From positions 62,001-126,000 of the forward strand of contig NZ_JAHLQA010000002.1 of the NCBI RefSeq assembly GCF_018918125.1: a stretch of 64,000 bases of DNA. Direction: 5' to 3'. The position numbers and the translations under genes were made by a program. The notes beneath the pieces were generated by a model, which was not told the DNA's origin, ran no database searches, and saw nothing but the letters and a program-made list of their open reading frames with translations. This document shows positions 40,750-58,710 of this stretch, one piece after another. Source of the stretch: Blautia sp. MSJ-19 (GTDB taxonomy: Bacteria > Bacillota > Clostridia > Lachnospirales > Lachnospiraceae). Within the stretch, counting starts at the first letter, position 1; every line of letters begins with the position of its first letter.

Positions 40750-41490
40750 GTGATATATATCAGTCATCTGCTCCCGGACGGGCAAATGCAGGAGATCATA
40801 AAAAACAGGGAGCTGGGAGTGGAGAGCATTGAATTTTCCATTTCTGAGAATCTGGATTATATGGAAACGACACTGGAAACATACAAAAAAAGACTGGAAC
40901 AGATGGGAAATCCATCACTTATTCTTCATGGACCTTTTCTGGATCTGATTCCGGCTACTTTTGACAGCCTGATCCGTGAAGTGACAATGAAGCGGTTTGC
41001 ACAGTGCTATCAGGCTGGCAGAGAATTGGGGGCCAAAAAGATCGTATATCATTCCGGAATGATTCCGACAGTGTATTTCCGAGAAGGATGGGCAGAACAG
41101 GTAAGCCGTTTTTTCAGAGACTTTCTGAGGGAAAGGACAGGACTGGAAATTGTCATGGAAAATGTGCTGGATGAAGACTGGAGACTTCTGCGGGATGTAT
41201 GTCAGCAGGTAGATCACCCGGATTTCGGACTTTGTCTGGACATTGGCCATGCACACTGTTATTCAGACATATCGGTTGTGGAATGGGCAAAAGAACTGGC
41301 TCCATATGTCCGGCATGTGCATATACATGACAATGCAGGCAAGCGTGATGCGCATATGGGACTTGGAAAAGGAAACCTGCCTTGGCAGGAAACGCTTGCA
41401 TATCTTCCTCAGACAGAGACACGTACATGGACGGTGGAGTGCATGGATGTGAAGGATGTACAGATATGTGTACAATCTTTGTTGACATAA
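40750..41490 (+). CDS. Sugar phosphate isomerase/epimerase-like TIM barrel protein
   Basis: 246-aa protein of the xylose isomerase-like/AP endonuclease 2 superfamily. Metal-binding positions seen: LILHGPF, IVYHSG (about residue 100), IVMENVL (Glu, about residue 136), LCLDIGHAHCY (Asp-x-x-His, about residues 160-164), HVHIHDN and VECMD at the end. The substrate is unknown; relatives act on sugars or inositols, or cut DNA at abasic sites. Start GTG 40750 with GGAG. The promoter of the corrinoid operon overlaps its last codons. Not obviously part of that system. Confidence 0.8.
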   Translation: MIYISHLLPDGQMQEIIKNRELGVESIEFSISENLDYMETTLETYKKRLEQMGNPSLILHGPFLDLIPATFDSLIREVTMKRFAQCYQAGRELGAKKIVYHSGMIPTVYFREGWAEQVSRFFRDFLRERTGLEIVMENVLDEDWRLLRDVCQQVDHPDFGLCLDIGHAHCYSDISVVEWAKELAPYVRHVHIHDNAGKRDAHMGLGKGNLPWQETLAYLPQTETRTWTVECMDVKDVQICVQSLLT

Positions 41491-41510
41491 ATTTGTCAAA
41501 ATGGTATACT
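41482..41510 (+). promoter_or_regulatory. Strong sigma-A promoter of the first cobalamin-riboswitch operon
   Basis: TTGACA at 41482-41487, 17-nt spacer, TATACT at 41505-41510. The -35 and spacer form a perfect dyad TTGACA-TAAATT-TGTCAA (41482-41499), so a repressor could also bind there. Confidence 0.85.
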
Positions 41511-41523
41511 TTATAAAAATTGG

Positions 41524-41685
41524 ATAACCAGGCGTGGTCTGTCGATAAAAGGCAGTTTAACGTAATCCGGTGAGAATCCGGAACAGTTATGGATAGCTGC
41601 TGTGAGTATGCATGAAGCATAATAAGTCAGATATAACACGTTGTGTAGAGGACAGAGACCCGTAGCAAACGGGGCTCTGTTTTTG
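41524..41685 (+). promoter_or_regulatory. Cobalamin riboswitch 1 with terminator
   Basis: Starts ATAACCAGGCGTGGTCTG; the core AATCCGGTGAGAATCCGGAA and then GCTGCTGTGAG match the central cobalamin (B12 box) pattern of paired CCGGTG/AATCCGG and CTGTGA. Later AAGTCAG and ACACGTTGT. The expression platform is CAGAGACCCGT/ACGGGGCTCTG around AGCAA plus TTTTTG (41653-41685). High corrinoid should stop transcription before 41704. It is very similar to the element at 58544. It controls the eleven genes 41704-58437 if they are one transcript. Confidence 0.9.
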
Positions 41686-41703
41686 TTGTCTTTAGGGGGA
41701 AAT

Positions 41704-42585
41704 ATGGAGAAATACAGACATGAAACAGGCTGGAATCAACTTCGTTTTGATATACAGACCTATACTGCACAGAATGAGCGCAACAGAAAAGATGGAACAC
41801 CGGGACAGATACCATTGCAATATAAATATATAGGAGACAGGTGTTTCATGAATAATGGAAAGGTTCATGAAGTGAAATTACCATCAGAATGCAGAATTAT
41901 TGGCAAACGGGCCTTTGAGGGATGTCAGTTTCAGAAGATGGTTGAGTTTCCGGAGACCCTGCTCGAAATCAAGAGCAGAGCGTTTGCAGGCAATCACAGA
42001 CTTCGAAGGACAGTTTTTCCGAAATCTTTGGAACGACTGGGTTCTCAGTGTTATCAGGAATGCAATAAACTTAAGATTGCAGCATTTACGGATAATGTGA
42101 AATGTACGGTGATTCGTGAGGGGACATTTGATTCCTGTGTCAGTCTGACGACCGTATGTCTGCCTGAGCGGACACAGGTGATTGAGAGACGGGCATTTTA
42201 CCGATGCAAAGAATTAAAAGATATTACATTTCCAAATACGCTCAGAGAGATAGGAATGGAAGCTTTCTATTTCTGCGGGATGGATACACTGGAATTGCCG
42301 TTGAATCTGAAAGTGATTGGTGAAAGTGCATTTTTTCGCTGCAAGAATCTGAAGACAGTTTATATTCCACCAAGTGTTCGCAAGATTGGACGCTGGGCAT
42401 TTCACGGTTGCAGCAGACTGGAGCGTATTGAGATTCTCCATGATCTGGAAGAAATTGGTCCGTGGATCATCAATAAGAGTTGTACGATCGTCTGTCGAAA
42501 AGGCAGTCGTATGGAAGAGTATGCAAAAGAATATGATTTTAAATGCGAATATGTAGAAGAAACAGAAGAAAGAAAAGAAGGCTGA
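41704..42585 (+). CDS. BspA-like leucine-rich repeat protein (293 aa)
   Basis: Series of LRR_5/BspA-type repeats of about 23 residues: CRIIGKRAFEGCQFQKMVEF, LLEIKSRAFAGNHRLRRTVF, TQVIERRAFYRCKELKDITF, LREIGMEAFYFCGMDTLELP, LKVIGESAFFRCKNLKTVYI, VRKIGRWAFHGCSRLERIEI. Such proteins are usually secreted, but no signal peptide or anchor is visible here, so it may be cytoplasmic. Start ATG 41704, 19 nt after the riboswitch T tract, with AGGGGG upstream; an upstream frame start at 41641 lies within the riboswitch and is not real. First gene of the corrinoid-regulated unit; its role there is unclear. Confidence 0.85.
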   Translation: MEKYRHETGWNQLRFDIQTYTAQNERNRKDGTPGQIPLQYKYIGDRCFMNNGKVHEVKLPSECRIIGKRAFEGCQFQKMVEFPETLLEIKSRAFAGNHRLRRTVFPKSLERLGSQCYQECNKLKIAAFTDNVKCTVIREGTFDSCVSLTTVCLPERTQVIERRAFYRCKELKDITFPNTLREIGMEAFYFCGMDTLELPLNLKVIGESAFFRCKNLKTVYIPPSVRKIGRWAFHGCSRLERIEILHDLEEIGPWIINKSCTIVCRKGSRMEEYAKEYDFKCEYVEETEERKEG

Positions 42586-42595
42586 GAGGGATTAC

Positions 42596-43102
42596 GTGAA
42601 AAAGAAAAAAAGGATAGTTTTGCTCATATGCAGCTTACTGATCGGGTGCCTTTTACTGTGCGGATGTGGTGCAGGGGAGGCAGAGCTTCCGGATGGAACC
42701 TGTACGATTTCTATTGAATGTAAAAATATATTAGAGAATATAGATAAGCTCAAAGAGAACAAAAAAGAATTTGTACCGGAAGACGGCTGGATTCTGAAAG
42801 AAACGGAAGTTTCGTTTAATGGTGGTGATACAGTGTTTGAGGTGCTCAAAAAGATATGTGCCGAGAATAAAATCCATATGTCATCCAGATATACACCTTT
42901 GTACAAAAGTTATTATATAGAAGGAATTCATCAGTTATATGAACTGGACTGTGGAAGCAATTCCGGATGGATGTACAGTGTAAACGGGAAATTTCCGAAT
43001 AAAGGATGTTCGAAGTATGAGTTAAAAGATGGAGATAAGATTGAATGGCGCTATACCTGTGATCTTGGATCTGATGTAGGAAATGAATATAAAAGGGATT
43101 GA
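42596..43102 (+). CDS. DUF4430 (transcobalamin C-domain-like) lipoprotein (168 aa)
   Basis: Lipoprotein signal: KKKKRIVLLICSLLIGCLLL then CGCG; the lipidated Cys is C24 or C22. The mature part matches DUF4430, the family whose fold equals the C-terminal beta domain of transcobalamin and intrinsic factor: GGDTVFEVLKKICAENKI (about residues 80-97), then the hallmark SGWMYSVNGKFPNKGCSKYE (about residues 123-142) and KDGDKIEWRYTCDLG. In human transcobalamin this domain caps the cobalamin. Behind a cobalamin riboswitch, a corrinoid-binding role is a reasonable inference. Start GTG 42596 follows GAGAGG. Next to it lies the alpha-domain lipoprotein. Confidence 0.88.
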   Translation: MKKKKRIVLLICSLLIGCLLLCGCGAGEAELPDGTCTISIECKNILENIDKLKENKKEFVPEDGWILKETEVSFNGGDTVFEVLKKICAENKIHMSSRYTPLYKSYYIEGIHQLYELDCGSNSGWMYSVNGKFPNKGCSKYELKDGDKIEWRYTCDLGSDVGNEYKRD

Positions 43103-43106
43103 AAAT

Positions 43107-44093
43107 ATGTGGAAAACAAACAGGCAATATGAACAGATAACAGCAAAAGGAATGTCGGCAGCTCTGATTCTGGCGATGACCCTGACTGTGGCGGGATGCG
43201 GAGAAGCCGGGACACCGGAACTCAAAGAGGCAATCCACAAGACAGCGGAGTATGAACAGAAGACCGTATCGTCGCCAGAGGTTGGTTCTCTTGGCGGAGA
43301 ATGGACGGTCCTTGCACTGGCAAGATCTGAGGAAGAAGTGGAGGACAGTTACTTCGAAAAATACAGAGCAAACCTTGAAAAATATGTCAAAGAACAAGAT
43401 GGCATTCTCAGCGAGAATCGATATACCGAATATGCCAGAGTGACGCTTGCTTTGACTGCAATCGGCGGAGATCCGACTGCAATTGGCGGATATGATCTGG
43501 AAAAAAATCTGGAAGATTTTGATGCAGTTACCGCGCAGGGAATAAACGGGGCAATCTTTGCATTGCTGGCACTGAATGCAGATGGAGAAAGAGAGGGAGC
43601 TCTGCAGGAAAAATATCTGGCGTATATTCTCGAAAGAGAAAAAACAGACGGAGGTTTTTCCATGGATGATAATAGTGATCAGGCAGATGTAGATATTACC
43701 GCGATGGCATTACAGAGTCTGGAACCATACCAGAATGAGCAGAATATACAGGAAACGCTGGACCGCGGTGTGGGATTTCTGGCAGACGCACAGGATGCGG
43801 ATGGCGGTTACACGGCATATGGCGAAAAAAGTTCTGAGTCCATATCGCAGACGATACTTGCACTTAGTACACTGGGGGTAGATTGCAATGAGGATGAGCG
43901 TTTTGTGAAGAATGATAAGGGGCTGTATGATACGTTGATGCAGTATTATCAGAAGGATGGCAGCTTTGCACATACCGTGGACGAAAAAGAAGGGAATCCA
44001 ATGGCAACAGATCAGGCTCTGTGCGCACTGGTTTCTTACGAAAGAATGCTGGACAATAAAAATACATTTTACAATATGACAGACCACAGATAA
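43107..44093 (+). CDS. Alpha/alpha-toroid lipoprotein, transcobalamin N-domain-like (328 aa)
   Basis: Lipoprotein signal: helix LILAMTLTVAGC with lipobox VAGC (C31). The mature part has repeats of the terpenoid cyclase/prenyltransferase toroid: GGEWTVLALARSEE, RVTLALTAIGGDP, INGAIFALLALNAD, TDGGFSMDDNSDQADVDITA, ADGGYTAYGEKSSESISQTI, ATDQALCALVSYERM. The GGF/GGY-plus-ALxAL spacing is the alpha6/alpha6 barrel also forming the N-terminal domain of transcobalamin and intrinsic factor. Start ATG 43107 (AAAGGGA upstream) is 4 nt past the DUF4430 gene; a start at 43083 would overlap it and lacks a better site. A complement to the neighbouring beta domain is inferred. Confidence 0.82.
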   Translation: MWKTNRQYEQITAKGMSAALILAMTLTVAGCGEAGTPELKEAIHKTAEYEQKTVSSPEVGSLGGEWTVLALARSEEEVEDSYFEKYRANLEKYVKEQDGILSENRYTEYARVTLALTAIGGDPTAIGGYDLEKNLEDFDAVTAQGINGAIFALLALNADGEREGALQEKYLAYILEREKTDGGFSMDDNSDQADVDITAMALQSLEPYQNEQNIQETLDRGVGFLADAQDADGGYTAYGEKSSESISQTILALSTLGVDCNEDERFVKNDKGLYDTLMQYYQKDGSFAHTVDEKEGNPMATDQALCALVSYERMLDNKNTFYNMTDHR

Positions 44094-44120
44094 GGCACGA
44101 ATGGCTGTTGGGAGGAAAAA

Positions 44121-45059
44121 GTGGCAGATAATAAAATAAAAGAATTAAGAAAAGAACTGGCGAAGATCATAAAAGGAAAAGAAGAGACAACAGACAAGAT
44201 CATCATGGCTGTGCTGGCCGGTGGACATGTGCTTCTGGAAGACGTGCCGGGGGTTGGTAAGACGACAACTGCTCTGGCACTGAGCCGTCTGATGGGAATG
44301 GATTTTCAGAGGATTCAGTTTACACCGGATGTGGTTCCTTCTGATGTGACGGGATTTACTATGTATGACAAAGAAAGCGGCAAGTTTACTTATCGTCCGG
44401 GCGCTGTGATGTGCAACTTCCTTCTTGCGGACGAAGTTAACCGAACTTCCAGTAAGACACAGTCAGCGCTTCTGGAAGTTATGGAAGAAGGCAGGGTAAC
44501 TGTAGACGGAGAAAGTCATCCGGTTCCGAAACCATTTGTGGTCATTGCAACAGAGAATCCGGTTGGCTCTTCCGGAACACAGATGCTTCCGGAATCACAG
44601 CTTGACCGATTTATGATCAGTACTTCGATGGGATATCCGGATCATGGAAGTCTTGTCGAAATCCTTCGTGATCGTCAGGAGGTAAATCCGCTGGAGCATG
44701 CACAGGCGGTGATCAGCAGGGAAGAAATTCTGGACATTCAGGAAGAGGTCAAAAAGATCTATGTGTCGGATGAAATTCTGTCCTATATAGCAGATCTGGC
44801 AGAAGCAACAAGAAGTCATGTATTGATCACATTGGGGTTGAGTCCTCGAGGAACGCTGGCACTTTGCCGTATGGCAAAAGCGGCTGCGTATCTGGATGGC
44901 AGAGATTATATGGTTCCGGAAGATGTGGAGGGTGTGTTTCGTGATGTTGCCGGACACCGGATGGTGTTGGAATCACGGGCACGATATGAAGAAAAAACTT
45001 CACGTCAGATTCTGGAAGAAATCCTTGAGACAGTACAGGCACCGAAGGTAGAGGGATAA
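44121..45059 (+). CDS. MoxR family AAA+ ATPase
   Basis: 312-aa ATPase: Walker A LLEDVPGVGKTTTALAL (about residues 35-51), Walker B FLLADEVNRTSSKTQSALLE (about residues 96-115), sensor 1 VIATENPVGSSGTQMLPESQLDRF and sensor 2 in LGLSPRGTLALCRMAKAAAYLDGR. MoxR proteins usually act as chaperone-like factors with a DUF58 partner; the DUF58 gene follows immediately and a transglutaminase-like membrane protein after that, the standard trio. Start GTG 44121 with GGGAGG. Here the trio lies inside the corrinoid operon, possibly to mature or assemble surface proteins. Confidence 0.94.
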   Translation: MADNKIKELRKELAKIIKGKEETTDKIIMAVLAGGHVLLEDVPGVGKTTTALALSRLMGMDFQRIQFTPDVVPSDVTGFTMYDKESGKFTYRPGAVMCNFLLADEVNRTSSKTQSALLEVMEEGRVTVDGESHPVPKPFVVIATENPVGSSGTQMLPESQLDRFMISTSMGYPDHGSLVEILRDRQEVNPLEHAQAVISREEILDIQEEVKKIYVSDEILSYIADLAEATRSHVLITLGLSPRGTLALCRMAKAAAYLDGRDYMVPEDVEGVFRDVAGHRMVLESRARYEEKTSRQILEEILETVQAPKVEG

Positions 45060-46205
45060 ATGAAAAACAGGATTCTTGTGATAATTTGGCTGGCAGGTAT
45101 GGCAGTTGCCGCATTGTATACGGGAGAATATCTGTATGCAGGGATTCTGACTGTGTCCGGAATCGTAATCGTATTGTCGGCAATCTTCTGTTTGCTTTCC
45201 GGAAGGAAAACAGAAAGTTGCCTGCATCTGCCAAGAGCGGTTGAGAAACAGACAGTTTTTCAGGGAAAACTGGAATTGCATAATCGTTCAATATGGCCGG
45301 TGTTTTACGGAAATGGCTCTGTAATATGCAGAAATACATTTACCGGTGAGGAACAGACCGTACAGATTCCTTTTTCACTGAAAGGCAATGGTACGATGCA
45401 GACTGCCTTTGAAGGGAAAAGTCTCTGGTGTGGCTGTATCAAATGTACATGCAGTAACTGGATAAATACTGATTTTCTGCAGATTTTCCACAAAAAGAAA
45501 TCGACAGAAGCAGAAGCGGATATGGTGATCATGCCGCAGAAACATATTCTGGATCTGTCTGTGCTGACACAGGAAGGCTTTGATATGGAAAGTTTCCGCT
45601 ATGCGTCAAACAGACCGGGAGATGACCCGGGAGAAACTTACGATATCAGAGAATACCGACAGGGTGACAGCGTGCGACAGATTCACTGGAAACTCAGTGA
45701 AAAACTGGATGGGCTGGTAATTCGTGAAAAAAGTTATCCGGTAGATGATGCAGTGCTGATTCTGGCAGATCCGTTTCTGAAGGAGACTGATCCAGAACGA
45801 GCAGAAGCAGTTGTGGAAATTTTTGCAGCATTACTGCAGAGTTTTATGGAAAAGAGAATTCCATGTCAGGCAGGAATCTGTGATGGTGAAAGCGGGCGCT
45901 TTCATATGGAAAAAATCTGTACAACAGAGGATTATGAAAATATGATGTATCTGTTTCTGAGACATGGCGGGAGCAGCAAAGGTCCGTGTGTAGTGCAGGA
46001 ATATCTGAAACTTTCCGGGACGCAGAAATTTTCTAATTATATTTATATAACAGGAGAAGCAACGGATCATGAGGACAGATATCTGAGAGAAAAAGGTCTT
46101 GTTCTCACAATGCGATGTGGACAGAAAGCAGGAAAAACAGAGGATGAGATCATATTTACCAAAGAACAGTTCCGCAAAGAACTGGGATTTCGTTCCGTGA
46201 GATAA
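45060..46205 (+). CDS. DUF58 membrane protein (381 aa)
   Basis: Two N-terminal membrane helices (residues about 5-20 and 26-45), then a beta region and the DUF58 core DPGETYDIREYRQGDSVRQIHWKLSEKLDGLVIREKSY... (from about residue 190), followed by a von Willebrand A-like stretch (DDAVLILADPF). Begins directly after the MoxR stop. DUF58 proteins work with MoxR ATPases in cell-envelope processes; details are poorly known. The next gene, transglutaminase-like, begins after 36 nt. No unusual feature. Confidence 0.9.
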   Translation: MKNRILVIIWLAGMAVAALYTGEYLYAGILTVSGIVIVLSAIFCLLSGRKTESCLHLPRAVEKQTVFQGKLELHNRSIWPVFYGNGSVICRNTFTGEEQTVQIPFSLKGNGTMQTAFEGKSLWCGCIKCTCSNWINTDFLQIFHKKKSTEAEADMVIMPQKHILDLSVLTQEGFDMESFRYASNRPGDDPGETYDIREYRQGDSVRQIHWKLSEKLDGLVIREKSYPVDDAVLILADPFLKETDPERAEAVVEIFAALLQSFMEKRIPCQAGICDGESGRFHMEKICTTEDYENMMYLFLRHGGSSKGPCVVQEYLKLSGTQKFSNYIYITGEATDHEDRYLREKGLVLTMRCGQKAGKTEDEIIFTKEQFRKELGFRSVR

Positions 46206-46241
46206 TATAAAGTCAGGCAGAAACAGAGGAGAATAGAACGG

Positions 46242-48554
46242 ATGGAATTGTGGCTTTCACAGGCAGAAAATGCCAGACAGAAACTGAATAAGAAAATACT
46301 GCTGAGTATTTTTGTGGAGGCATTGCTGATCTTTGCCACCTTTGGAATCGGCGTCTGTGAAATATTGCATATGCTTACTGGAATGCAGATTTCATGGCTG
46401 TATCTGGCCGGAGCAGCAGGAAGTATTCTGCTTTGTCTGTTTTTGGAAAAATGGCATCGATTTGGTATACAGGCAGGAGCCGTTTTTTTTATTCTGTATG
46501 TGGGTGTGCTGCTGATTTTTCATGCGACAATTCAAAATGGAATGCTTGGGGTGTGGAATCAGGTGGCAGATATGTTTGGGAGCAAAGCCGGAATCTATCT
46601 GACACGTTATGCGGTTTCAGAGAATGGGATGGCGGCAGACCAGGTATACTTTCTGACATTGATGGGAATTGCAGCAGGAGTGATCGGCTATGCAGTCACA
46701 CGCCTTCGACTGAGTATTCTGCTGCTCTTATATAGTATGGTGCCTCCGGTATTGATCAGTCTGCTGGATCAGAACCCGGATGGAAGAATGACAGTTCTTT
46801 TTTATACAGGTATATTTCTTCTGATCAACTGGATAAGTTCATCGAACAGAAATATCCAACAGGAAAAACATGCACCGGCATTTGCAGCAGGAGCTTTGTT
46901 TCTGTGTATTGTGGCAGCAGTGAGCGGGGGGAGTTTCCAGTTGCTTGTGCCGGAAACAGGATATGAGACATCAGAGCTGGTGACAAATGCCCGGGAGGAA
47001 TTTCGGGATAAGATAGAAACATTCCGTTTTCAAAAAGGAAAGATCAACACATTGCCGGAAGGCAGACTCAAAGAAACAGGCGAGTGGACTGCATCAGATG
47101 AAACTGCACTTACAGTAAAAATGGAGGTTCCGGATTCTCTGTATCTCAGGGGCTTTGTCGGAAGCGTATATGATGGAGATCGATGGAAAACAATCTCAAC
47201 AGAAGATGCATGGAAAGAAAAAACTCTTTTTTACTGGCTGCATCAGGATGGATTCTATGGAGAAACACAGCTTTCTGAAGTCAGAAATATGATTCAGGAT
47301 GATACACTTTCTTCTGAAACAGGCACCATGCAGATTACAAATAATCATGCAGACAGCCGATATCTTTATACCCCGTATGAAATGACAGAACTTCCGGAAG
47401 GCTATACGGGAGAGACCGCACTGACGGACAGTACACTGGCATCCGGAGGCCTGTTTGGAAACAGAAAATACAGCCTGCAGACGATGGGAAATCTGGTAAA
47501 AGATTTTACGACCCTTGGAGCTGAAAGTTATCAGATGCTGGCAGAGGGCGGGCAGATGGGCTACAGGGAGACGGAAAGCTATTATAATGCATTTGTATAT
47601 GAGCAGGACACTGTACTTCCAGATTCACTTACCAGCTTGTTTCAGAAGGAACTGGGAAATGGCGGAAACCGGGAACAGGGGCATACAGATTACTATACTG
47701 CAATCTCTAGAATACGTGCATATCTGGAGAAAAATATGACATACAGTACAGCGACGGATCCCTTTACAGATTCTGGTGATTTTGTAACCAATTTTCTTAC
47801 AGAATCCAAAATCGGACACAGCGTGCATTATGCTACAGCAGCAACACTGATGTTTCGGTATTACGGAATTCCTTCCAGATATGTGGAAGGTTATCTGATC
47901 ACGCCGGAAGATGTGCGGGATAAGACTGCGGGAGACAGCATTGAGATTCCGGGAAAAAACGGACATGCATGGACGGAAATCTATATGGATGGTCTGGGCT
48001 GGGTACCGATAGAAATGACTCCGGAATATTATGGTGTTATGGAGGAACCGGATCTGACCCTTGGTCTTGAGGCACAGGGAAGCCGGACAGCTCCGCTGCC
48101 GGAAGTCCAGGATCATACGGAAGAACTTCCGGATATCCAGACACACTGGAACCTGAAACTGGCACTTGCAGGACTGACAAGATTTCTGGTATTGCTTTTA
48201 CTTGTGATTGATGTGTTCTGCATTCTTTTCTTTATGATCGTGTGCGGCCTTCGGGTTTATGCAAATTTTCGAAGAAAAAAAGCATTTGCCTCGAAAGACA
48301 GTCGTGTGGCTGTACGGGCACTGACTGGCTATGCGGTACAACTTTACCATCATGGAGATTATGGACCAGAGTTGAGTGATCGTTATCAGACAGCATACCG
48401 CACAGGTGAAAAAGCTGCATTCAGCCGACATGAGATTTCTGAAAAAGAACGAAAAGACGTAGAACAGTGTGTGGCACAGATGATAACTGAATTAAAGGCA
48501 AAAACAGGCTGGTATGATCTGTGGATCATGAAGTATATTGAACGATTATTATAA
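46242..48554 (+). CDS. Transglutaminase-like membrane protein with substituted catalytic Cys (770 aa)
   Basis: TgpA-like layout: about six N-terminal membrane helices (residues about 20-230), extracellular part, transglutaminase core (about residues 500-600), one more helix (LVLLLLVIDVFCILFFMIV, about residues 650-670) and a cytoplasmic tail. The usual core GYCEHFA reads GHSVHYA here, so the nucleophile position is Ser527; the histidine is kept in GHAWTEIY (His575) and the Asp position reads Glu591 in VPIEMTP. The common Cys-His-Asp triad is thus Ser-His-Glu, so normal transglutaminase/protease chemistry is unlikely; binding or a different activity is possible. Third member of MoxR-DUF58-TG set. 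Confidence 0.88.
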   Translation: MELWLSQAENARQKLNKKILLSIFVEALLIFATFGIGVCEILHMLTGMQISWLYLAGAAGSILLCLFLEKWHRFGIQAGAVFFILYVGVLLIFHATIQNGMLGVWNQVADMFGSKAGIYLTRYAVSENGMAADQVYFLTLMGIAAGVIGYAVTRLRLSILLLLYSMVPPVLISLLDQNPDGRMTVLFYTGIFLLINWISSSNRNIQQEKHAPAFAAGALFLCIVAAVSGGSFQLLVPETGYETSELVTNAREEFRDKIETFRFQKGKINTLPEGRLKETGEWTASDETALTVKMEVPDSLYLRGFVGSVYDGDRWKTISTEDAWKEKTLFYWLHQDGFYGETQLSEVRNMIQDDTLSSETGTMQITNNHADSRYLYTPYEMTELPEGYTGETALTDSTLASGGLFGNRKYSLQTMGNLVKDFTTLGAESYQMLAEGGQMGYRETESYYNAFVYEQDTVLPDSLTSLFQKELGNGGNREQGHTDYYTAISRIRAYLEKNMTYSTATDPFTDSGDFVTNFLTESKIGHSVHYATAATLMFRYYGIPSRYVEGYLITPEDVRDKTAGDSIEIPGKNGHAWTEIYMDGLGWVPIEMTPEYYGVMEEPDLTLGLEAQGSRTAPLPEVQDHTEELPDIQTHWNLKLALAGLTRFLVLLLLVIDVFCILFFMIVCGLRVYANFRRKKAFASKDSRVAVRALTGYAVQLYHHGDYGPELSDRYQTAYRTGEKAAFSRHEISEKERKDVEQCVAQMITELKAKTGWYDLWIMKYIERLL

Positions 48555-48571
48555 GAAAGGAGACACACCGG

Positions 48572-49906: not shown

Positions 49907-52900
49907 TGAAAAAAGTTCTGGCAGGATTTCTTTCTCTGGCACTTTGCCTGGGAAGTGTTCCGGTTTATGGAGCGGAAGAAAATATAGAAATACAGAACAC
50001 AGAAGAATATACGGAGTCAACAGAGTCCACAGATTCAGAAGAGCTGCCGGCTGCGGAGGAAAACGCAGAAAGTGGCGAAGGCGAGATAGAGATCGGGGAA
50101 ATCGGGGATGAGGAGTCCGGAGATGAAGAAAGCGAGGAATTTCCGGAAATTTCAGACGGAGAGCAGGAAACGGATTCTTCAACAGAAATCCAGGAAGCTG
50201 CGGAAGTGGAATTTCAGTCTGATGTCGGCAGTGAAGCAGAGGATTATCTGGAAAATCTGACAGTTTATACAAGCAAAGAGGGGACATTGCCTGAAAATAT
50301 CCGTACACCGGAACGCCGGGAAGATATGGACCAGGAGTTTGGAGGCAGAGTATATACTGTAGAGTACAGTTCCTATGCGTCGGCAACTTCTTTTTATGTA
50401 TCTGCAGATCTGACAGATCTGGCCCCGGAGGGAGCAACGCTTCGGATGTCCGCGTGGAGTATGGATGGCAGACTGCTGGCGACAGAAATGGAGCCGAAAG
50501 CTTTTTCAGACGGAAAGAGGTACCGACTGAACGGACGTACCTTTGGAAATGGGGAAAATGGCGGGATCCGCACGGTTTATACAATCGAAGCCGGTACCGA
50601 AGAAGAAATGCAGACATACAAACTCGTAGTACTGCGAAGACTGGATCTGTCCGGAATCGGCTGTTATCTTCCGGAGGACGAAGATCTGGCCCGTAATCTG
50701 ATTTCGGAGAAATTTGACAGTGCAGCTCGCGAGTATTCTGCAGAAGTGGCAGAAAATGTTACATATGTGCAGGTCAGTGCACAGGCTTATTCAGATGTTT
50801 ATTATGGGCTGACAGTCAACGGAGAACCAGTACAGAGTACGGCACCGGTACAGGTTCCGCTTCAGACAGAGGGAGATACGGAAATTGTTCTGACGATGTC
50901 CACAGAAGGCAGTTATAATGACCCGGATTATCAGAATCTGACATATACTTCGGAGGGAACTTACCGGATCATTGTATCCAGGCAGCAGAACAGTGCGGTG
51001 GAATTCAAGGTGACACCACAGAATGCTGTGGTCAGTGTATATGACAGCAAGGGAGAACGGGCAGCTGCGTCTGCCGAAAATGTTTTCCTTTATGATGATC
51101 TTGCGGCAGGAAGCACCTATACATGGAATGTATCGTGTTATGGATACAAATCCTGCCAGGGGAGTTTTGTAGCGGGGGAAGTACATGAGATCACGGCAGA
51201 ACTGGAAGAAGCAGACACCAGACAGCCGGAGATTGAAGATAATGACTGGATCAACTACCGGAACAGTGACAGTAATAACGGAATTACATCAGCGTCAACA
51301 CCGGCAGATGCAGAAGAGACGATTCAGAAATGGGCGGTCAAGATTGGCGGAGACTGGAACTCAGCAGTAACGCCTCCTTTGGTTTTGGGTGGCTGTCTGT
51401 ATGCGGCATCCGGCAAATTTATTTATAAGTTAGACAGAAACACAGGAGAGATTCTTGCGGTCAGTGAAGAACTGGTGGGAAGTATGGTCTTTGCATTGAA
51501 TCCACTGACTTACGCAGAAGGAATGCTGTTTGCACAGGTTGGTGGAGGACAGATTCAGGCACTTAGTGCGACTACTCTGAAATCTTTGTGGGTCAGCGAA
51601 CCGGTAGGGGGACAGACACTGTGTCCAATCACTTATAAGGATGGTTATATTTATACTGGTACCTGGAATTCAGAGACAACGGCAGGAACATATTTTGCAT
51701 TATCTGTGACAGATGAAGATCCTGCAAGAGGGGATGAAGTTAAGCACTGTATCTGGAAGTACAGTCACAAAGGCGGTTTTTACTGGGCCGGTGCTTATGC
51801 TTCTGAGGAGTATCTGGTCTTTGGATCTGACGACGGAGCAGCAATAGGAGCTGATACAAATACATCTATTCTGTATTCTGTGTCTACAAAGACCGGAAAT
51901 ATGCTGGATAAATTGTCTGGTATTAATGGCGATATTCGTACTACGGTATCCTATAGCAACGGCTATGTATATTTTGCGACAAAAGGTGGCTATCTGTACC
52001 GTGTCAAAATGAATGCAGATGGAACTTTTGGACAGGTCCTGAGCTATGATCTTGGTGGGATGGCAACTGCAACACCGCTGATATATAATGGAAGGATCTA
52101 TATCGGAGTCTGTGGTCAGGGAGGACAGTTCAATGCGGATGGAGGTCATCATTTTGATGTTCTGCAGGAATCTGAAAATGCACTGAGTCTTGCATATTCT
52201 GTACAGGTGAGTGGCTATCCGCAGGCAGCTCCGCTTTTATCGAATGCTTATGAAAAGCAGGATTTTAATGGAGATGGCATAGCAGATGGAAGAGTCTGTG
52301 TTTATTTTACGGCGAATGCATTTCCGGGCGGCATTTACATGTTAAAAGATGAGCCTGGACAGACCGAGGGCAAGGCAGAAGAGATTTTTGTACCGGATAC
52401 GGAACAACAGCAGTACAGTATCAGTACGCTTTGTGTAGACAGAGATGGAACGATTTATTACAAAAATGATTCCAATTATATGATGGCAATCGAAAAAAAT
52501 GATGCTTGTCTGACCGCTGTGGAAGTGACGGCCGAACAGGGAGAGGTAATCTGGGACAGATCTTATCAGAAAGATAAGACCGGTTATAACCTTTCCTGCG
52601 GAGAAAAAGCGGGACAGATCACTTTCCGTTTTCAGGTAGCAGAAGGAGGAACGCTTACTGTTAACGGGAATGCATGTGATGGTACGTTTACCACAGAGTT
52701 TACGGGAGAAGAGATGCCGGTAACGGCAGTGATTTCCAAAAATGGAAAATCAAGACGATATGTATTTACGCTTACCGGGGACAGAAGCAGTGCGGCATTA
52801 AAAAATCTGACAGTGAGCAGCAGCAATACTTATGCAGATACGGACAAACAGATCACACTGAATCCGTCGTTTGCGACTGATCGATATGAATATACGACAG

Positions 52901-54837
52901 AATGTTATGAAGGAGAGGGTTCACAGCTCAATATCTTTGTGGAGCCGGAAGATGAATCGGCCAGCATCCATGCAGAGGGTGTCAGTGGAACCAGAAAAGT
53001 TACCGATTTTGGACTGACAGCCGGAAGCGGCAAAGCACACAGAATTGCAGTATATTTTGCGGAAGAGGAAGCGGTAGCACAGGTAAGGATCCAGATACAG
53101 ACAAAGACCGGAAAGACAGCTTCTTATTTAGTTGTGCTGCGGAGAACAGATATCTATCCGCCGATTCTCACAGGTGGACAGGCTGCTCGTTATGAAAATG
53201 GCAAAGTCCGTATCACATTTGTTTCAAATGAGGCAGGAAGATATGCATATCAGGTGGTGTCAGCAACGCAGAAGCCGGAATTTTCTGAGGAGTTTTCAAA
53301 TCAGATGGTACAGGGAAGCAATACGTTTGACCTGAATATTCCTGAGGATGAGACCGGAGATGTATATATTCTTGCATGTGATCAGGATGGGAACAGAATG
53401 TCACAGCCGATGTGTATTTCGGTTTCCGCATATCGGACATTTACGGTAAACATCCGGACGACACCGGAGGATGCTGTGGTGGAGATCACAGATCAGGACG
53501 GACAGATACTCAGTCCGGAGAAGAACGGATATACATGGGTTGAGGGAAATACGTATCGTATTCAGGTGTCAAAAACCGGCTATGAGACAGTGAGCGAAAC
53601 GGTAAAGGCAGACAGTGATAAAAAAGAATACAGTTATACATTGAAATCAATGATGAGCTCTAATGCAGAGCTGAAACACCTGTATGTTTCCAGTTCGGAT
53701 ACCTATGGAAAAGGCATCCAGAAAATAGATCCGTCTTTTGAGATGCAGAAGACGAGTTATACAGTGACATATGGAGGCGAGAGACAGAGCCTGAACGTAT
53801 GGGCGCAGGCACAGGATGCCAAAGCGGCTGTCCGCGTGTATGCACTGACAGGAATCAGCGGATCTGTTGTACAGAAGGATGAGACAATTCATGAGAGCAA
53901 AACAGAAGACGGACATGTATTCTGGAAAATTGTTTTTGCACAGGGAGAGAAAGAAGCGAAGATTCGTATGCAGGTGACTGCTGAGGATGGCACTGCAAAG
54001 AATACCTATCTGACACTCAGACTGACAGACACGACTGCACCGGTGCTGAAAAAAGTCAGCGCGAGCAGAATTGCGGAGGACAAAGCATCCGTAGTATATA
54101 AATCCAGCGAAAAAGGATACCGTTATTTTAAAGTGATAGATGCCGGTGCAAAGGTTCCGACCATAAATACCAGTGGCAATGGAACGGAAATTCAGGCAGG
54201 AACAGACACGGTGTCTCTGACAGGTCTGACAGCCGGTGAGAAGGATCTTGTGGTCGTAGTTAAGGATGCTGCAGGTAATGTGAGCGAACCTCTGGTCATT
54301 CGGATTCCGGATGTCCGAAAGGCAAATGGAAATTCCGGTTCAGCAAATGGCGGTGTGATTCAGCGTCCTGGAAGCGGAGGACATAAATCACAGGCAGGAA
54401 TTCCGGGAAGCGGTTCAAATGGAGAAGGATCAAAAGCAAATCTGAAAATGGTCAGTGGAAACGGCTCAGGAGGAAGTGACTCCCAGAAAGGCAGCGTGTC
54501 TGAAGGAAAGAAGAGCAGCAAGGGAAAAGGCACAAAAAAAGGCACTGGAGATTCTTCTGAGGAAACCGTAGAACAGAAAAAAGCAAAGTCCAACAAAAAG
54601 GCTGACGGCAAAAATGGAGCGGATGAAGAGAACTCTTCGGGTCAGACAGCTACAGAAGAAAGCACAGAGGAAGAGCAGTCAAAAGAGAAAAAAACTTCCA
54701 CTGGCAGTGTGATGACCGGATTAAAAGAGATGAATCGTGGAATCTGGATGCTTCTTATTCTGGCAGTGCTGGGAGTCACTTATGTCCTTTTCTGGATCAG
54801 GGCAAGATATTGTTACAGAAGGAGAATGTTGAAATGA
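49906..54837 (+). CDS. Giant surface protein with PQQ-like beta-propeller and C-terminal membrane anchor (1643 aa)
   Basis: Signal peptide MKKVLAGFLSLALCLGSVPV, acidic linker to about residue 100, cadherin-like beta domains (about 105-365), a PEGA domain (about 366-440), then a PQQ/quinoprotein-like propeller (about 470-860) with blades such as GGCLYAASGKFIYKLDRNTG, YVYFATKGGYLYRVKM and RIYIGVCGQGG. Then more cadherin-like units (VSSSNTYAD / VSSSDTYGK), a second PEGA (about 1178-1245), a Ser/Gly/Lys linker and a final helix IWMLLILAVLGVTYVLFWIR with RRR tail. No LPXTG. ATG 49906 overlaps the previous stop. In a cobalamin-controlled operon the propeller recalls BtuG of Bacteroides, which binds B12 through a beta-propeller; homology is not implied and binding is untested. 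Confidence 0.83.
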   Translation: MKKVLAGFLSLALCLGSVPVYGAEENIEIQNTEEYTESTESTDSEELPAAEENAESGEGEIEIGEIGDEESGDEESEEFPEISDGEQETDSSTEIQEAAEVEFQSDVGSEAEDYLENLTVYTSKEGTLPENIRTPERREDMDQEFGGRVYTVEYSSYASATSFYVSADLTDLAPEGATLRMSAWSMDGRLLATEMEPKAFSDGKRYRLNGRTFGNGENGGIRTVYTIEAGTEEEMQTYKLVVLRRLDLSGIGCYLPEDEDLARNLISEKFDSAAREYSAEVAENVTYVQVSAQAYSDVYYGLTVNGEPVQSTAPVQVPLQTEGDTEIVLTMSTEGSYNDPDYQNLTYTSEGTYRIIVSRQQNSAVEFKVTPQNAVVSVYDSKGERAAASAENVFLYDDLAAGSTYTWNVSCYGYKSCQGSFVAGEVHEITAELEEADTRQPEIEDNDWINYRNSDSNNGITSASTPADAEETIQKWAVKIGGDWNSAVTPPLVLGGCLYAASGKFIYKLDRNTGEILAVSEELVGSMVFALNPLTYAEGMLFAQVGGGQIQALSATTLKSLWVSEPVGGQTLCPITYKDGYIYTGTWNSETTAGTYFALSVTDEDPARGDEVKHCIWKYSHKGGFYWAGAYASEEYLVFGSDDGAAIGADTNTSILYSVSTKTGNMLDKLSGINGDIRTTVSYSNGYVYFATKGGYLYRVKMNADGTFGQVLSYDLGGMATATPLIYNGRIYIGVCGQGGQFNADGGHHFDVLQESENALSLAYSVQVSGYPQAAPLLSNAYEKQDFNGDGIADGRVCVYFTANAFPGGIYMLKDEPGQTEGKAEEIFVPDTEQQQYSISTLCVDRDGTIYYKNDSNYMMAIEKNDACLTAVEVTAEQGEVIWDRSYQKDKTGYNLSCGEKAGQITFRFQVAEGGTLTVNGNACDGTFTTEFTGEEMPVTAVISKNGKSRRYVFTLTGDRSSAALKNLTVSSSNTYADTDKQITLNPSFATDRYEYTTECYEGEGSQLNIFVEPEDESASIHAEGVSGTRKVTDFGLTAGSGKAHRIAVYFAEEEAVAQVRIQIQTKTGKTASYLVVLRRTDIYPPILTGGQAARYENGKVRITFVSNEAGRYAYQVVSATQKPEFSEEFSNQMVQGSNTFDLNIPEDETGDVYILACDQDGNRMSQPMCISVSAYRTFTVNIRTTPEDAVVEITDQDGQILSPEKNGYTWVEGNTYRIQVSKTGYETVSETVKADSDKKEYSYTLKSMMSSNAELKHLYVSSSDTYGKGIQKIDPSFEMQKTSYTVTYGGERQSLNVWAQAQDAKAAVRVYALTGISGSVVQKDETIHESKTEDGHVFWKIVFAQGEKEAKIRMQVTAEDGTAKNTYLTLRLTDTTAPVLKKVSASRIAEDKASVVYKSSEKGYRYFKVIDAGAKVPTINTSGNGTEIQAGTDTVSLTGLTAGEKDLVVVVKDAAGNVSEPLVIRIPDVRKANGNSGSANGGVIQRPGSGGHKSQAGIPGSGSNGEGSKANLKMVSGNGSGGSDSQKGSVSEGKKSSKGKGTKKGTGDSSEETVEQKKAKSNKKADGKNGADEENSSGQTATEESTEEEQSKEKKTSTGSVMTGLKEMNRGIWMLLILAVLGVTYVLFWIRARYCYRRRMLK

Positions 54838-55844
54838 ATCAGAAAGTAAACGATGCTTTTTCAAATTGCCATCCGTTTTTGAATTTTTTCTATTTTACGG
54901 TGGTGCTGCTGTTTACCATGTTCAACCAGCATCCGGTTTTTCTGGCAATCTCTTATGTCAGTGCGGTGACTTATGCTGTGCTTCTGCATGGATTAAAAAA
55001 GACACTGAAGCAGATGTTTCTTCTGACCGGACCAGGACTTTTGGTGGTAACACTTCTTAATCCGCTTTTTAATCATTATGGTGTGACCATGCTGTATTAT
55101 GTAGAAGCAAGTGGAAACTGGATCACGCTGGAGGCACTGGTGTATGGACTGGTGCTGGGTGCAGTCATGTTTATCATCATTCAATGGTTCAGCTGTTATA
55201 ATAGTGTAATGACAACAGATAAATTTGTGTATCTGTTTGGACGAGTGATTCCGGCATTATCACTGGTACTGTCTATGGCACTTCGATTTGTTCCACGATT
55301 TACGGAACAGTTGGGAAAAATCCGTAATGGACAAAAAGCCATGGGAAGAGATATAGCGAATGGCAATGTGCTTAAACGGGCAAAGCATGGGATGAATATT
55401 TTATCGATCCTTGTGACCTGGGCATTGGAAAATGCAATTGAGACTTCTGATTCTATGAGAAGCAGAGGATATGGGCTCCGTGGAAGAACTGCGTTTTCCA
55501 TATACCGCTATACTACAAGAGACCGGTGGCTGACCGTGATCATGACAGGCTTGTTTGCTGTTTTTGCAGTGGGCTGTGCCGGTGGCGCTGCCTATGCGGT
55601 GTATGATCCGCAGATTGAACTGGCAGGCCTGACCGTGCAGGGAAGACAGGCAGCGGTGAGTTGCGGGACACTGCCTGCAATAGCAACTTATGTGGCATTT
55701 GCACTGTTCTGTTTCCTGCCGGTACTGTTGCATGCGGCAGAAAGATGGGCGTTGCACAACAGGAAAAAAACAGTGGGTACCGATATTGGGCTGACCTATC
55801 GAAAAATCTATGAAGAACTGGAACAGGAGAGAACGTGTTCATGA
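54834..55844 (+). CDS. ECF transporter T component (EcfT)
   Basis: 336-aa membrane protein with about six helices. EcfT coupling motif ETSDSMRSRGYGLRGRT (about residues 204-220) contains the Ala/Ser-Arg-Gly type coupling helix that contacts the ATPases; front part LNFFYFTVVLLFTMFNQHPV is typical. It links the substrate-binding S component with the energising ATPases. Start ATG 54834 overlaps the preceding stop with GGAGAATG ahead. The cytoplasmic C-terminal tail (YRKIYEELEQERTCS) is longer than the core family. The dedicated T component suggests a group I-type (own-module) ECF transporter. Confidence 0.92.
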   Translation: MNQKVNDAFSNCHPFLNFFYFTVVLLFTMFNQHPVFLAISYVSAVTYAVLLHGLKKTLKQMFLLTGPGLLVVTLLNPLFNHYGVTMLYYVEASGNWITLEALVYGLVLGAVMFIIIQWFSCYNSVMTTDKFVYLFGRVIPALSLVLSMALRFVPRFTEQLGKIRNGQKAMGRDIANGNVLKRAKHGMNILSILVTWALENAIETSDSMRSRGYGLRGRTAFSIYRYTTRDRWLTVIMTGLFAVFAVGCAGGAAYAVYDPQIELAGLTVQGRQAAVSCGTLPAIATYVAFALFCFLPVLLHAAERWALHNRKKTVGTDIGLTYRKIYEELEQERTCS

Positions 55845-57577
55845 ATATAGTGGAAATCAGAAATTTCAGTTTCAGCTATCCGGAGCAGCAAAAAAAAGCT
55901 CTTAAGCAGATGAATCTGGATATAGAAGAAGGCACTTTGAATGTGATCTGCGGCAGGAGCGGCTGTGGGAAAAGCACATTGCTTCGTCAGATGAAAACAG
56001 TTCTGGCACCACACGGAGAGACAGAAGGGAAAATCCTTTACAAAGGTATACCGCTGGCAGAACTGGATCACAGAACGCAGAGTCAGGAAATTGGTTTTGT
56101 GATGCAGAATCCGGACAATCAGATCGTAACAGACAAGGTGTGGCATGAACTTGCATTCGGACTGGAAAGCCTTGGATATGACAGTCCGACGATCCGGCTC
56201 AGAGTAGCAGAAATGGCAAGTTATTTTGGAATTCATCAGTGGTTTTATCGTGATGTAAAAGAACTGTCCGGAGGGCAGAAACAACTCCTGAATCTGGCTG
56301 CGATCATGGCGATGCATCCGTCTCTTCTGATCCTGGATGAGCCGACGTCGCAGCTGGATCCGATCGCGGCATCTGACTTTCTGGAAACGGTCAAAAAAAT
56401 AAACAGAGATATTGGTACGACGGTAATTCTGACAGAACATCGCCTGCAGGATATCATTCCGTTTGCGGATCATGTGTTTGTCATGGATCAGGGGGAACTT
56501 CTTACAGAGGGAGAGCCAGGTGAAATCGGGATGGAACTGAAAAAGAGACAGCATGGAATGTTTCTTTCCATGCCGGTTCCGATGCAGATTTACGGTGCTG
56601 TGGACAGTGATCTGCAGTGTCCTCTGACAGTAAGCGAGGGCAGGATCTGGATGCAGAAATATCTGGAAGAGCATCCGGCAGGCAACATGTACAGTCAAGA
56701 TGACAACAGGGAAAACATGCATCATAATCAGGAAACTGGTTCGACAAAAGAAAAGAAGAAAAAAGAAAAACCGGTGATTGAAGTAAAAGATGTATGGTTT
56801 CGATATGAAAAAGACAGCCCGGATGTAGTGCGTGATCTGTCATTTCAGGTAAAAAAAGGGGAATTTTATGCCCTGGTAGGTGGAAATGGTACCGGCAAAA
56901 GCACGACGCTGTCTTTGCTGAGCCGTATCCGTGCACCGTATCGGGGCAGAATCTGCCTGGAGGGGAAAGATATTCGTAAATTCAGTGACGGAGAACTGTA
57001 TAATGGATATCTCGGGGTGCTTCCACAGAATCCGCAGAGTCTGTTCCTCAAAAAAACAGTGCTGGAAGATCTGTATTCTGTGATCGGTGGAAAAAAGGAA
57101 CGCAGGTCACAGGAATATCCGATCGCAATGCAGAAAGAAAAAGCAATCGAAGGGATTGTAAGTCTGACCAGGCTGGAGGGTTTGCTGGAGCGACATCCGT
57201 ATGATCTGAGCGGTGGCGAACAGCAGAGACTGGCACTGGCAAAGGTACTTCTGCTCAGACCCAAAATCCTTCTGATGGATGAGCCGACAAAAGGAATGGA
57301 CGCAGAGTACAAAGAGGAACTGGGAAAAATCCTCAGGAAGCTTCAACAGCATGGAATTACCGTGTTCATGATCTCTCATGATGTAGAATTTGTAGCAGAA
57401 TATGCAGATCGCGTAGGGCTGTTCTTTGAGGGAAATATAGTTACAAGCAATGAGACGCGTGCCTTTTTTGCAGGAAACAGCTTCTATACGACTGCTGCGA
57501 ATCGGATGGCACGGCAGTTCTTTCCGGAGGCGGTCACAGGAAAGGATGTGGTAAGATGCTTAATGAACAAGAATTAG
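55841..57577 (+). CDS. Fused ECF ATPase (A and A' domains in one chain, 578 aa)
   Basis: Two ABC ATPase domains. First (about residues 1-240): Walker A CGRSGCGKSTLL, Q-loop VMQNPDNQIVTDKVWHELAFG, signature LSGGQKQLL, Walker B LLILDEPTSQLDP. Linker Lys/Glu-rich. Second (about residues 305-540): GGNGTGKSTTL, LPQNPQSLFLKKTV, LSGGEQQRLALAKVL, ILLMDEPTKGMD, ISHDVEF. Both sites look intact. ECF transporters normally have separate A and A' subunits or a fused form as here. ATG 55841 overlaps the T gene stop; a GTG at 55835 is less likely. Overlaps the S component by 22 nt. Confidence 0.95.
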   Translation: MNIVEIRNFSFSYPEQQKKALKQMNLDIEEGTLNVICGRSGCGKSTLLRQMKTVLAPHGETEGKILYKGIPLAELDHRTQSQEIGFVMQNPDNQIVTDKVWHELAFGLESLGYDSPTIRLRVAEMASYFGIHQWFYRDVKELSGGQKQLLNLAAIMAMHPSLLILDEPTSQLDPIAASDFLETVKKINRDIGTTVILTEHRLQDIIPFADHVFVMDQGELLTEGEPGEIGMELKKRQHGMFLSMPVPMQIYGAVDSDLQCPLTVSEGRIWMQKYLEEHPAGNMYSQDDNRENMHHNQETGSTKEKKKKEKPVIEVKDVWFRYEKDSPDVVRDLSFQVKKGEFYALVGGNGTGKSTTLSLLSRIRAPYRGRICLEGKDIRKFSDGELYNGYLGVLPQNPQSLFLKKTVLEDLYSVIGGKKERRSQEYPIAMQKEKAIEGIVSLTRLEGLLERHPYDLSGGEQQRLALAKVLLLRPKILLMDEPTKGMDAEYKEELGKILRKLQQHGITVFMISHDVEFVAEYADRVGLFFEGNIVTSNETRAFFAGNSFYTTAANRMARQFFPEAVTGKDVVRCLMNKN

Positions 57578-58437
57578 ATCAGTTTCTGGACGAGTTCATG
57601 GATACAGAAAAAAGAACGGCACTGACCATGCCTGAACAAAAGAAAAAGAAACACAAAAAGGAAATGGTGACAGAGGAGTATACGCTGCCATCGGATGGAC
57701 TTATTATCAGACAGATGAAAAAAGAAGGAACGGTCAGCAAACGAACCTGGGCAGCAATGTTTTTGCTTTTGCTGGTGGTTCCACCGGTGTTGTTTTTTTC
57801 AGTAAAAGTTTTTCATGGGAGAAAATACCTTCTGTGCAGTCTGATTGTGGTGATTGCGGCGATGCTGCCTTTTTTTATGATGTTTGAAGGCAGGAAGCCA
57901 AAGGCAAGAGAAATCATGGTCATATCGGTACTTGCAGCAATCGGTGTGGCTGGCAGGGCTGCCTTTTTTATGGTCCCGAGCTTCAAGCCGGTGGCAGCGA
58001 TCGTGATTCTGACGGGGATATCCTTCGGCGGGGAAGCCGGATTTCTTGTGGGATGTATGATCATGCTGCTGTCCAATATGTTTATGGGACAGGGACCATG
58101 GACTCCGTGGCAGATGTTTGCGTTTGGAATCATTGGATACCTGGCAGGCATTCTCTATCAGTGTGGGATTCTCAAAGCAAAAAAAACACAGCTTTGTATA
58201 TTTGGATTTCTCAGTGTTTTTCTGATTTATGGAGGTATTATGAACCCGGCCGGAATCCTGATGTCTTATGGATATATTACAAAAAGCACCTTGATTGCCT
58301 ATTATATTTCCGGGGCACCAGTCGATCTGGTGCATGCGCTTTCTACGGTATTTTTCCTGTGGGTACTCAGCCGGCCGCTGCTCGAAAAGCTGGAGAGGAT
58401 CAAGGTGAAATACGGTCTGATCGAGAAAAATGCCTGA
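57556..58437 (+). CDS. ECF transporter S component, probably cobalamin type
   Basis: 293-aa membrane protein: a cytoplasmic start of about 55 residues rich in Lys, helices, then the S-component core with GRAAFFMVPSFKPVAAIVIL, GISFGGEAGFLVGCMIMLLS, NMFMGQGPWTPWQMFAFGII. These blocks resemble the cobalamin-type S components named CblT/CbrT in comparative studies of ECF transporters; the resemblance is from memory. Being last in a cobalamin-riboswitch operon with EcfT and EcfAA' supports corrinoid uptake. Queuosine or other ligands cannot be fully excluded. Start ATG 57556 lies within the ATPase gene end. Confidence 0.87.
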   Translation: MLNEQELDQFLDEFMDTEKRTALTMPEQKKKKHKKEMVTEEYTLPSDGLIIRQMKKEGTVSKRTWAAMFLLLLVVPPVLFFSVKVFHGRKYLLCSLIVVIAAMLPFFMMFEGRKPKAREIMVISVLAAIGVAGRAAFFMVPSFKPVAAIVILTGISFGGEAGFLVGCMIMLLSNMFMGQGPWTPWQMFAFGIIGYLAGILYQCGILKAKKTQLCIFGFLSVFLIYGGIMNPAGILMSYGYITKSTLIAYYISGAPVDLVHALSTVFFLWVLSRPLLEKLERIKVKYGLIEKNA

Positions 58438-58502: not shown

Positions 58503-58531
58503 TTGACGAAAATGTAAAAAAATGGTATAAT
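58503..58531 (+). promoter_or_regulatory. Sigma-A promoter of the second riboswitch transcript
   Basis: TTGACG at 58503-58508, 17-nt spacer, TATAAT at 58526-58531. The spacer end ATGG and -10 match the layout of the promoter at 41482, pointing to common origin. Confidence 0.85.
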
Positions 58532-58543
58532 GTAACGAACAAA

Positions 58544-58710
58544 ATAACCAGACGTGGTCTGATTTGGTGAAATTAGTTTATGGAAATCCGGTGTGAATCC
58601 GGAACGGAATCGGCTGTGATAGGTGCATGACGCGGAATGCATGTTTAGTCAGCGTAACTGACACGTTGTACAGGGCAGAGACTCATCAGATTTATGAGGC
58701 TCTGTTTTTT
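58544..58710 (+). promoter_or_regulatory. Cobalamin riboswitch 2 with terminator
   Basis: ATAACCAGACGTGGTCTG, then AATCCGGTGTGAATCCGGAA, CGGCTGTGATAGG, a TGCATG hairpin, AGTCAGCGTAACTGACACGT and the terminator CAGAGACTCAT/ATGAGGCTCTG plus TTTTTT (58676-58710). Same order as riboswitch 1 with strong conservation in the core and the terminator outer stem. Fills most of the 309-nt gap 58438-58746. It should shut the giant protein gene when corrinoid is plentiful. Confidence 0.9.

Follow-up and report, generated by a model that had tools for sequence, protein, structure and literature searches.

A predicted riboswitch-controlled operon in Blautia joins a CbrT-type ECF transporter to transcobalamin-like candidate surface capture proteins

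In a 64-kb stretch of DNA from Blautia sp. MSJ-19 (here called the window; positions 62,001 to 126,000 of contig NZ_JAHLQA010000002.1, from a genome of 3.57 Mb in 47 contigs), eleven open reading frames (ORFs), g1 to g11, follow one another on the forward strand from 41704 to 58437 behind a cobalamin-class riboswitch, with successive spacings of 10, -20, 27, 0, 36, 17, -16, -28, -10, and -22 nucleotides (nt). This layout suggests that they are probably one riboswitch-controlled operon, whose cotranscription is predicted. At its center are two small lipoproteins and an energy-coupling factor (ECF) transporter. The g2 product (42596 to 43102; 168 amino acids [aa]) is a DUF4430 lipoprotein (PF14478, E 7.1e-24) and that of g3 (43083 to 44093; 336 aa) is an α-toroid lipoprotein with a PF00432 (Prenyltrans) domain and the lipobox VAGC; by the fold of a homologue (see below), these resemble the β and α domains of transcobalamin, respectively. 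The transporter comprises EcfT (g9, 54810 to 55844; PF02361, CbiQ/EcfT), fused EcfA-EcfA' ATPases (g10, 55835 to 57577; two ABC_tran stretches), and the S component EcfS (g11, 57556 to 58437; Pfam ECF S families). The original prediction for this DNA had named the same eleven gene types, separated by gaps of at most 36 nt or by overlaps, and had proposed a surface-to-cytoplasm corrinoid pathway. The gene types hold by Pfam, with the DUF58 and propeller matches just under their cutoffs, and the spacings (-28 to +36 nt) are as it described.

Upstream of g1 lies a promoter-like site whose -10 element is extended (TTGACA-17-TATACT; 41482 to 41510, forward strand), largely kept by alignment in a Blautia relative (locus L100). 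It scores 11/12 and is one of the two best of 29 such sites between 41000 and 59000; since shuffling predicts 28.2, the promoter scan by itself proves little. Terminator-like sites number 17, with 11.8 expected (standard deviation, 3.9), and because both scans are near chance in number, the weight rests on the riboswitch and the gene order. The riboswitch, a divergent adenosylcobalamin (AdoCbl)/cobalamin-class element at 41540 to 41683 on the same strand, matches the AdoCbl model RF01482 over positions 1 to 149 of 149 with 36.5 bits (gathering score, 50) and E values of 2.4e-5 for the 321 nt searched and 6.3e-5 for the whole genome; against RF00174 it scores 20.8 bits (gathering score, 31.5). 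A gathering-threshold Rfam search of the whole window passed no family. The covariance search proposed with the original prediction thus returns a full-length cobalamin match that is beyond chance by its E value but falls under the curated gathering scores of clan CL00101. A terminator hairpin lies at about 41648 to 41684 (-20.1 kcal/mol, z -3.84), and the aptamer is retained in L100, where it scores 40.4 bits (E 5.2e-6 for 561 nt). The promoter, cobalamin-type riboswitch, and terminator that had been claimed ahead of the genes are therefore all recovered, the first as a promoter-like site.

By family models alone, the substrate of the S component would be unclear, as g11 passes the Pfam cutoffs of both ECF-ribofla_trS and ECF_trnsprt, and NCBIfam offers only subthreshold riboflavin and folate names. 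We aligned it with the S components of 14 of the 60 EcfS-bearing named loci described below (15 sequences in all, alignment A6) and searched all PDB chains with the resulting profile. This retrieved 6fnp_A with an E value of 5.6e-19, the next S component being 4hzu_S at 0.15. The entry 6FNP is ECF-CbrT from Lactobacillus delbrueckii, which is reported to transport cobinamide as well as cobalamin (PMC5997447). The S component is therefore closer to CbrT than to any other solved S component, and the adjacent g9 and g10 supply EcfT and two EcfA ATPases. On the basis of this homology to a proven B12 transporter, cobalamin transport is predicted here as well. Unlike in L. delbrueckii, where several S components share one ECF module (PMC5997447), the EcfT and EcfAA' genes of the window lie in the S component's own operon. 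The S component is also larger (293 versus 182 aa for CbrT), many of its relatives have EcfA and EcfS in one ORF, and the window differs further from ECF-CbrT in its attached candidate extracellular capture proteins.

Insight into these proteins came from a natural DUF4430-toroid-DUF4430 fusion (L130:5837-9013), to which g3 and g2 align at 30% and 37% identity, respectively. As it has an S-layer homology match, this fusion is probably wall bound and may be a wall-anchored B12 binder. Its structural model (mean predicted local distance difference test [pLDDT] score, 90.9; predicted template modeling [pTM] score, 0.70) was compared with the PDB by using Foldseek: the best 15 matches are all entries of one or another of the B12 carriers transcobalamin, haptocorrin, and intrinsic factor, with E values of 3.3e-12 to 8.7e-10, and the match after these is a terpene cyclase (E 5.8e-5). 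Isolated β domains of human transcobalamin are likewise matched by its DUF4430 part (5no0, TMt 0.71; 5np4, TMt 0.75). As for the packing of the two domains that would form a ligand cleft, the comparison gave a root mean square deviation of about 20 Å, with a linker pLDDT of about 50 or less. By the fold modeled for this homologous fusion, the toroid and DUF4430 are the two domains of transcobalamin and intrinsic factor, and corrinoid binding is predicted from it. The vertebrate carriers join an α-toroid and a DUF4430-type β domain in one chain, whereas the window encodes the two as separate lipoproteins. Single-ORF combinations occur in 22 of 80 named loci and 10 of 20 regions, and fusions in seven loci (L110, L130, L131, L141, L145, L157, and L170) keep the vertebrate order of toroid and then DUF4430. 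The likeness emerges from the structure model only. PDB sequence searches with g2 alone gave no transcobalamin, and those with alignments of DUF4430, the toroid, and the fusion no transcobalamin or intrinsic factor chain, among the matches listed, and the eukaryotic cobalamin-binding family is not among the Pfam matches of g3 at E values of ≤1, so that by sequence g3 does not belong to the eukaryotic carrier family. A relationship of DUF4430 to these carriers has precedent, as the domain was noted at the C terminus of TCN proteins (PMC4350170), and the structure 3u7z, labeled Ruminococcus gnavus in the Foldseek listing of the fusion model, falls in the CATH superfamily of transcobalamin and intrinsic factor domains (PMC13385337).

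The toroid is linked to the transporter beyond the window, as a neighborhood survey of the kind suggested with the original prediction showed in two samples. In a family sample of 150 genomes searched for homologues of both proteins, the toroid was found in 28 and EcfS in 38, including all 28 toroid genomes (Fisher p 2.5e-22); the test was also computed without the four genomes with weak EcfS matches, whereupon 27 of the 28 keep EcfS (p 3.3e-22). Both genes lie on one contig at most 15.1 kb apart in 22 tabulated genomes and, counting the window, in 23/28. This table leaves out the source genome, the weak EcfS matches (G037, G042, G045, and G056 C30; E 6e-8 to 4e-6), second EcfS pieces (G021, G051, G078, G123, and G139), and partial toroid pieces (G071 C55, G098 C73, and G106 C37). 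In a phylum sample of 398 genomes, counted at an E value of 1e-20, the toroid is present in at least 70 and a CbrT-type S component in at least 111, figures that may be low because at most six candidates were scored per genome. The two co-occur in 69 of the 70 toroid genomes and lie within 20 kb of each other in 61. Cobalamin riboswitches show the same linkage: among 34 EcfS genomes (the above 38 minus the source genome, G037, G042, and G045), at least 20 have one over the cutoff on the same strand and at most 12 kb upstream of the toroid or EcfS gene, against 0.22 expected at random (assuming random placement and rounded genome sizes). The count becomes 21 if one weak element is included, leaving 13 with none, and may be low because at most 54 candidates were scored per genome. 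Finally, 80 named loci retrieved with a DUF4430 profile, many of them short contigs, contain EcfT in 71, EcfA in 66 (a count that may take in other ABC ATPases), the toroid in 65, and EcfS in 60. Represented among these loci are Blautia, Hominisplanchenecus, Ruminococcus bromii, and Fusibacter, as well as many metagenome-assembled genomes of Oscillospiraceae and Clostridia. As a separate observation, the weakly related S components (G056:C30, G037:C90, G042:C6, and G045:C26) are each directly adjoined by a DUF4430 protein, with no toroid on that contig.

Corrinoid import is supported by two independent lines of evidence: the homology of the S component to CbrT, and the carrier fold of the toroid and DUF4430, domains found in linkage with CbrT-type transporters in the phylum sample. 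We consider it likely that the operon encodes a CbrT-type ECF importer of cobamides that is equipped at the surface with capture proteins resembling transcobalamin. From this homology, fold, and linkage, we infer the following course of binding, hand-over, transport, and regulation. At low intracellular adenosylcobalamin levels, the riboswitch, judging from its class and hairpin, would let transcription proceed past the terminator. The toroid and DUF4430 domains at the surface, here split between g3 and g2 with a further DUF4430 protein in g7, would bind a corrinoid between them in the manner of transcobalamin and intrinsic factor. The ligand would then pass to the CbrT-type S component, which would topple within the EcfAA'T module and release it inside the cell. 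The pathway originally envisaged from surface to cytoplasm is supported for these parts, the CbrT homology, carrier fold, and phylum-wide linkage all favoring it; for the propeller, the leucine-rich repeat protein, and the MoxR-DUF58-transglutaminase trio, a corrinoid role is a possibility suggested by association.

Alternatively, the locus could encode a plain CbrT-type B12 importer, with a coregulated toroid and DUF4430 doing some other surface job, such as adhesion or wall contact, without binding corrinoids. The surface proteins are indeed long and vary between loci in size and domain makeup, and since 42 of the 111 EcfS genomes in the phylum sample are without a toroid match at an E value of 1e-20, the transporter does not need the toroid. 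However, the toroid seldom occurs without the S component (1/70), and the combined fold matches the B12 carriers before all else in the Foldseek listing, which makes this explanation improbable. The toroid might instead be a terpene-cyclase-type enzyme in an operon that handles a different molecule, as both its sequence and its domain-level structure match squalene-hopene and drimenyl diphosphate synthases. DxDD, the catalytic motif of class II terpene cyclases, is nevertheless absent at that site from all 21 rows of one alignment (A1) and all 41 toroid rows of another (A3), while the CbrT-type S component and the cobalamin riboswitches indicate corrinoids; we give the enzyme explanation very little credence.

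The cargo could be mainly another corrinoid or a metal-porphyrin, such as cobinamide, other cobamides, or heme, rather than B12 itself. The reported acceptance of cobinamide by CbrT (PMC5997447) is in keeping with this, as are three strong cobalamin riboswitches elsewhere in the source genome (95.8 to 115 bits), which, being stronger than that of the operon, imply that this locus is not the only B12-linked one. Heme is disfavored by the riboswitches and the CbrT homology, and a preference for cobinamide or for some other cobamide would modify, not refute, the reading of cobamide import with surface capture; a main cargo other than B12 seems unlikely to us.

The individual parts of this system are known, and it is their combination that is the new element. 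The original prediction had pointed to no known system with this set of surface parts, and among the open-licence papers listed we likewise found no account of the toroid, DUF4430, and ECF transporter together, a result that does not prove absence. A name of the form "Additional lipoprotein component of putative cobalamin ECF transporter," which we take to be a SEED-type annotation, does precede our work. It appears in a table of an L. rhamnosus paper, which also places a DUF4430 gene next to rtpR (PMC9963975). Like the window, this annotation ties a small lipoprotein to a cobalamin ECF transporter; unlike it, in the part of that paper concerned, it stands as an annotation alone, without a toroid, riboswitch, or structural argument. 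CbrT, the relation of DUF4430 to the carriers, and this annotation (PMC9963975) were known already.

In Bacteroides, B12 is bound at the surface by the lipoprotein BtuG, and the BtuG/BtuH route is Gram negative and coupled to BtuB. Such surface capture ahead of an importer, also described for BtuH (PMC8941943), parallels our reading of the window. In the literature searched, we found no described equivalent of this route in Gram-positive gut bacteria, for which the operon is a concrete and, on the phylum-sample counts given above, widespread candidate for pre-import B12 capture. If g2 and g3 bind corrinoids, they would be the equivalent of intrinsic factor in bacteria and could mark where the animal B12 carriers originated, with a bearing on host-microbiota competition for the vitamin. 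More speculatively, the bacterial toroid-DUF4430 proteins and the vertebrate carriers might descend from one two-domain corrinoid binder, gut Clostridia fielding a surface intrinsic factor that competes with the host and passes the vitamin to the CbrT importer; we offer this as a tentative possibility, falling somewhat short of a favored view.

The remaining genes of the operon may have corrinoid-related roles by association. The g1 product (41704 to 42585; 293 aa) is a BspA-type leucine-rich repeat protein (Pfam LRR_5) that is probably cytoplasmic, as a simple scan for membrane segments and lipoboxes found neither a transmembrane-like segment nor a lipobox. It is followed after g3 by a MoxR AAA ATPase (g4, 44121 to 45059; Pfam AAA_3), a DUF58 protein (g5, 45060 to 46205; 22.5 bits, cutoff 23.4), and a TgpA-type membrane transglutaminase-like protein (g6, 46242 to 48554; TgpA_N and Transglut_core). 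This trio, which would probably assemble or process the surface proteins, is again found next to genes for the toroid and DUF4430 in 3 of 20 regions (L050, L057, and L069) and 1 of the 80 named loci (L100) and is therefore real but uncommon. L050 and L057 hold ECF genes too; the region of L069 has its toroid on the opposite strand and yielded no ECF gene, and the L100 stretch ends ahead of the expected position of the ECF genes. The g7 product (48572 to 49906) has one N-terminal transmembrane-like segment and a C-terminal DUF4430 domain. That of g8 (49891 to 54837; 1,648 aa) combines a signal peptide, judged by eye, with cadherin-like domains, a PQQ/BamB-type propeller (Pfam score 26.6, under the cutoff of 27.6), and a C-terminal transmembrane-like segment. 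The model of the propeller (pLDDT, 84.5; pTM, 0.86) retrieved BamB, YxaL, and tetrathionate hydrolase entries as the 50 matches listed; the nearest of these are BamB/PQQ types, and BtuG, as an analogue of which the propeller had been considered, is not among the 50, an absence that excludes nothing. Compact loci in which a short propeller protein directly precedes EcfT-EcfA-EcfS-DUF4430, with no toroid detected (L105:5233-10399 and L109:1819-6981), hint that a propeller can replace the toroid. The closest named relative among the matches listed, from which nearer records may be excluded, is Blautia sp. Marseille-P3087, with 78% identity over the DUF4430 lipoprotein, and a phage origin found no support, a megablast search of 41704 to 46205 against phage records giving no match.

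Downstream of the operon, we identified a second riboswitch and a giant protein behind it that the original prediction had overlooked. Following a promoter-like site (TTGACG-17-TATAAT; 58503 to 58531, forward strand), this weaker cobalamin-class element (58538 to 58710, same strand), which also aligns to the first riboswitch, matches RF00174 at 58538 to 58679 with 20.5 bits (gathering score, 31.5; E 0.0024 for 321 nt and 0.006 genome-wide) and has a weaker terminator-like hairpin (z -1.52). Behind it, from 58747 on the forward strand to the window end at 64000 and beyond, lies the gene for a 2,147-aa surface protein (L004:748-7191) with a signal peptide judged by eye and carboxypeptidase-regulatory-like and FIVAR domains by Pfam. 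Together with the g8 propeller protein, it would probably present or relay corrinoids further out, judging by association. A DUF4430-like stretch suspected within it at 61993 to 62442 found no support (hhalign probability 1.3%; no DUF4430 among the Pfam matches). On another contig of the source genome (L006:13318-19330), a 1,726-aa surface protein with DUF4430 adjoins a relative of the operon's leucine-rich repeat protein; the genome-wide covariance scan listed no cobalamin riboswitch match on that contig. At least 63 nt downstream of the 2,147-aa protein gene is an ORF of 712 aa, whose C-terminal repeats appear similar by eye.

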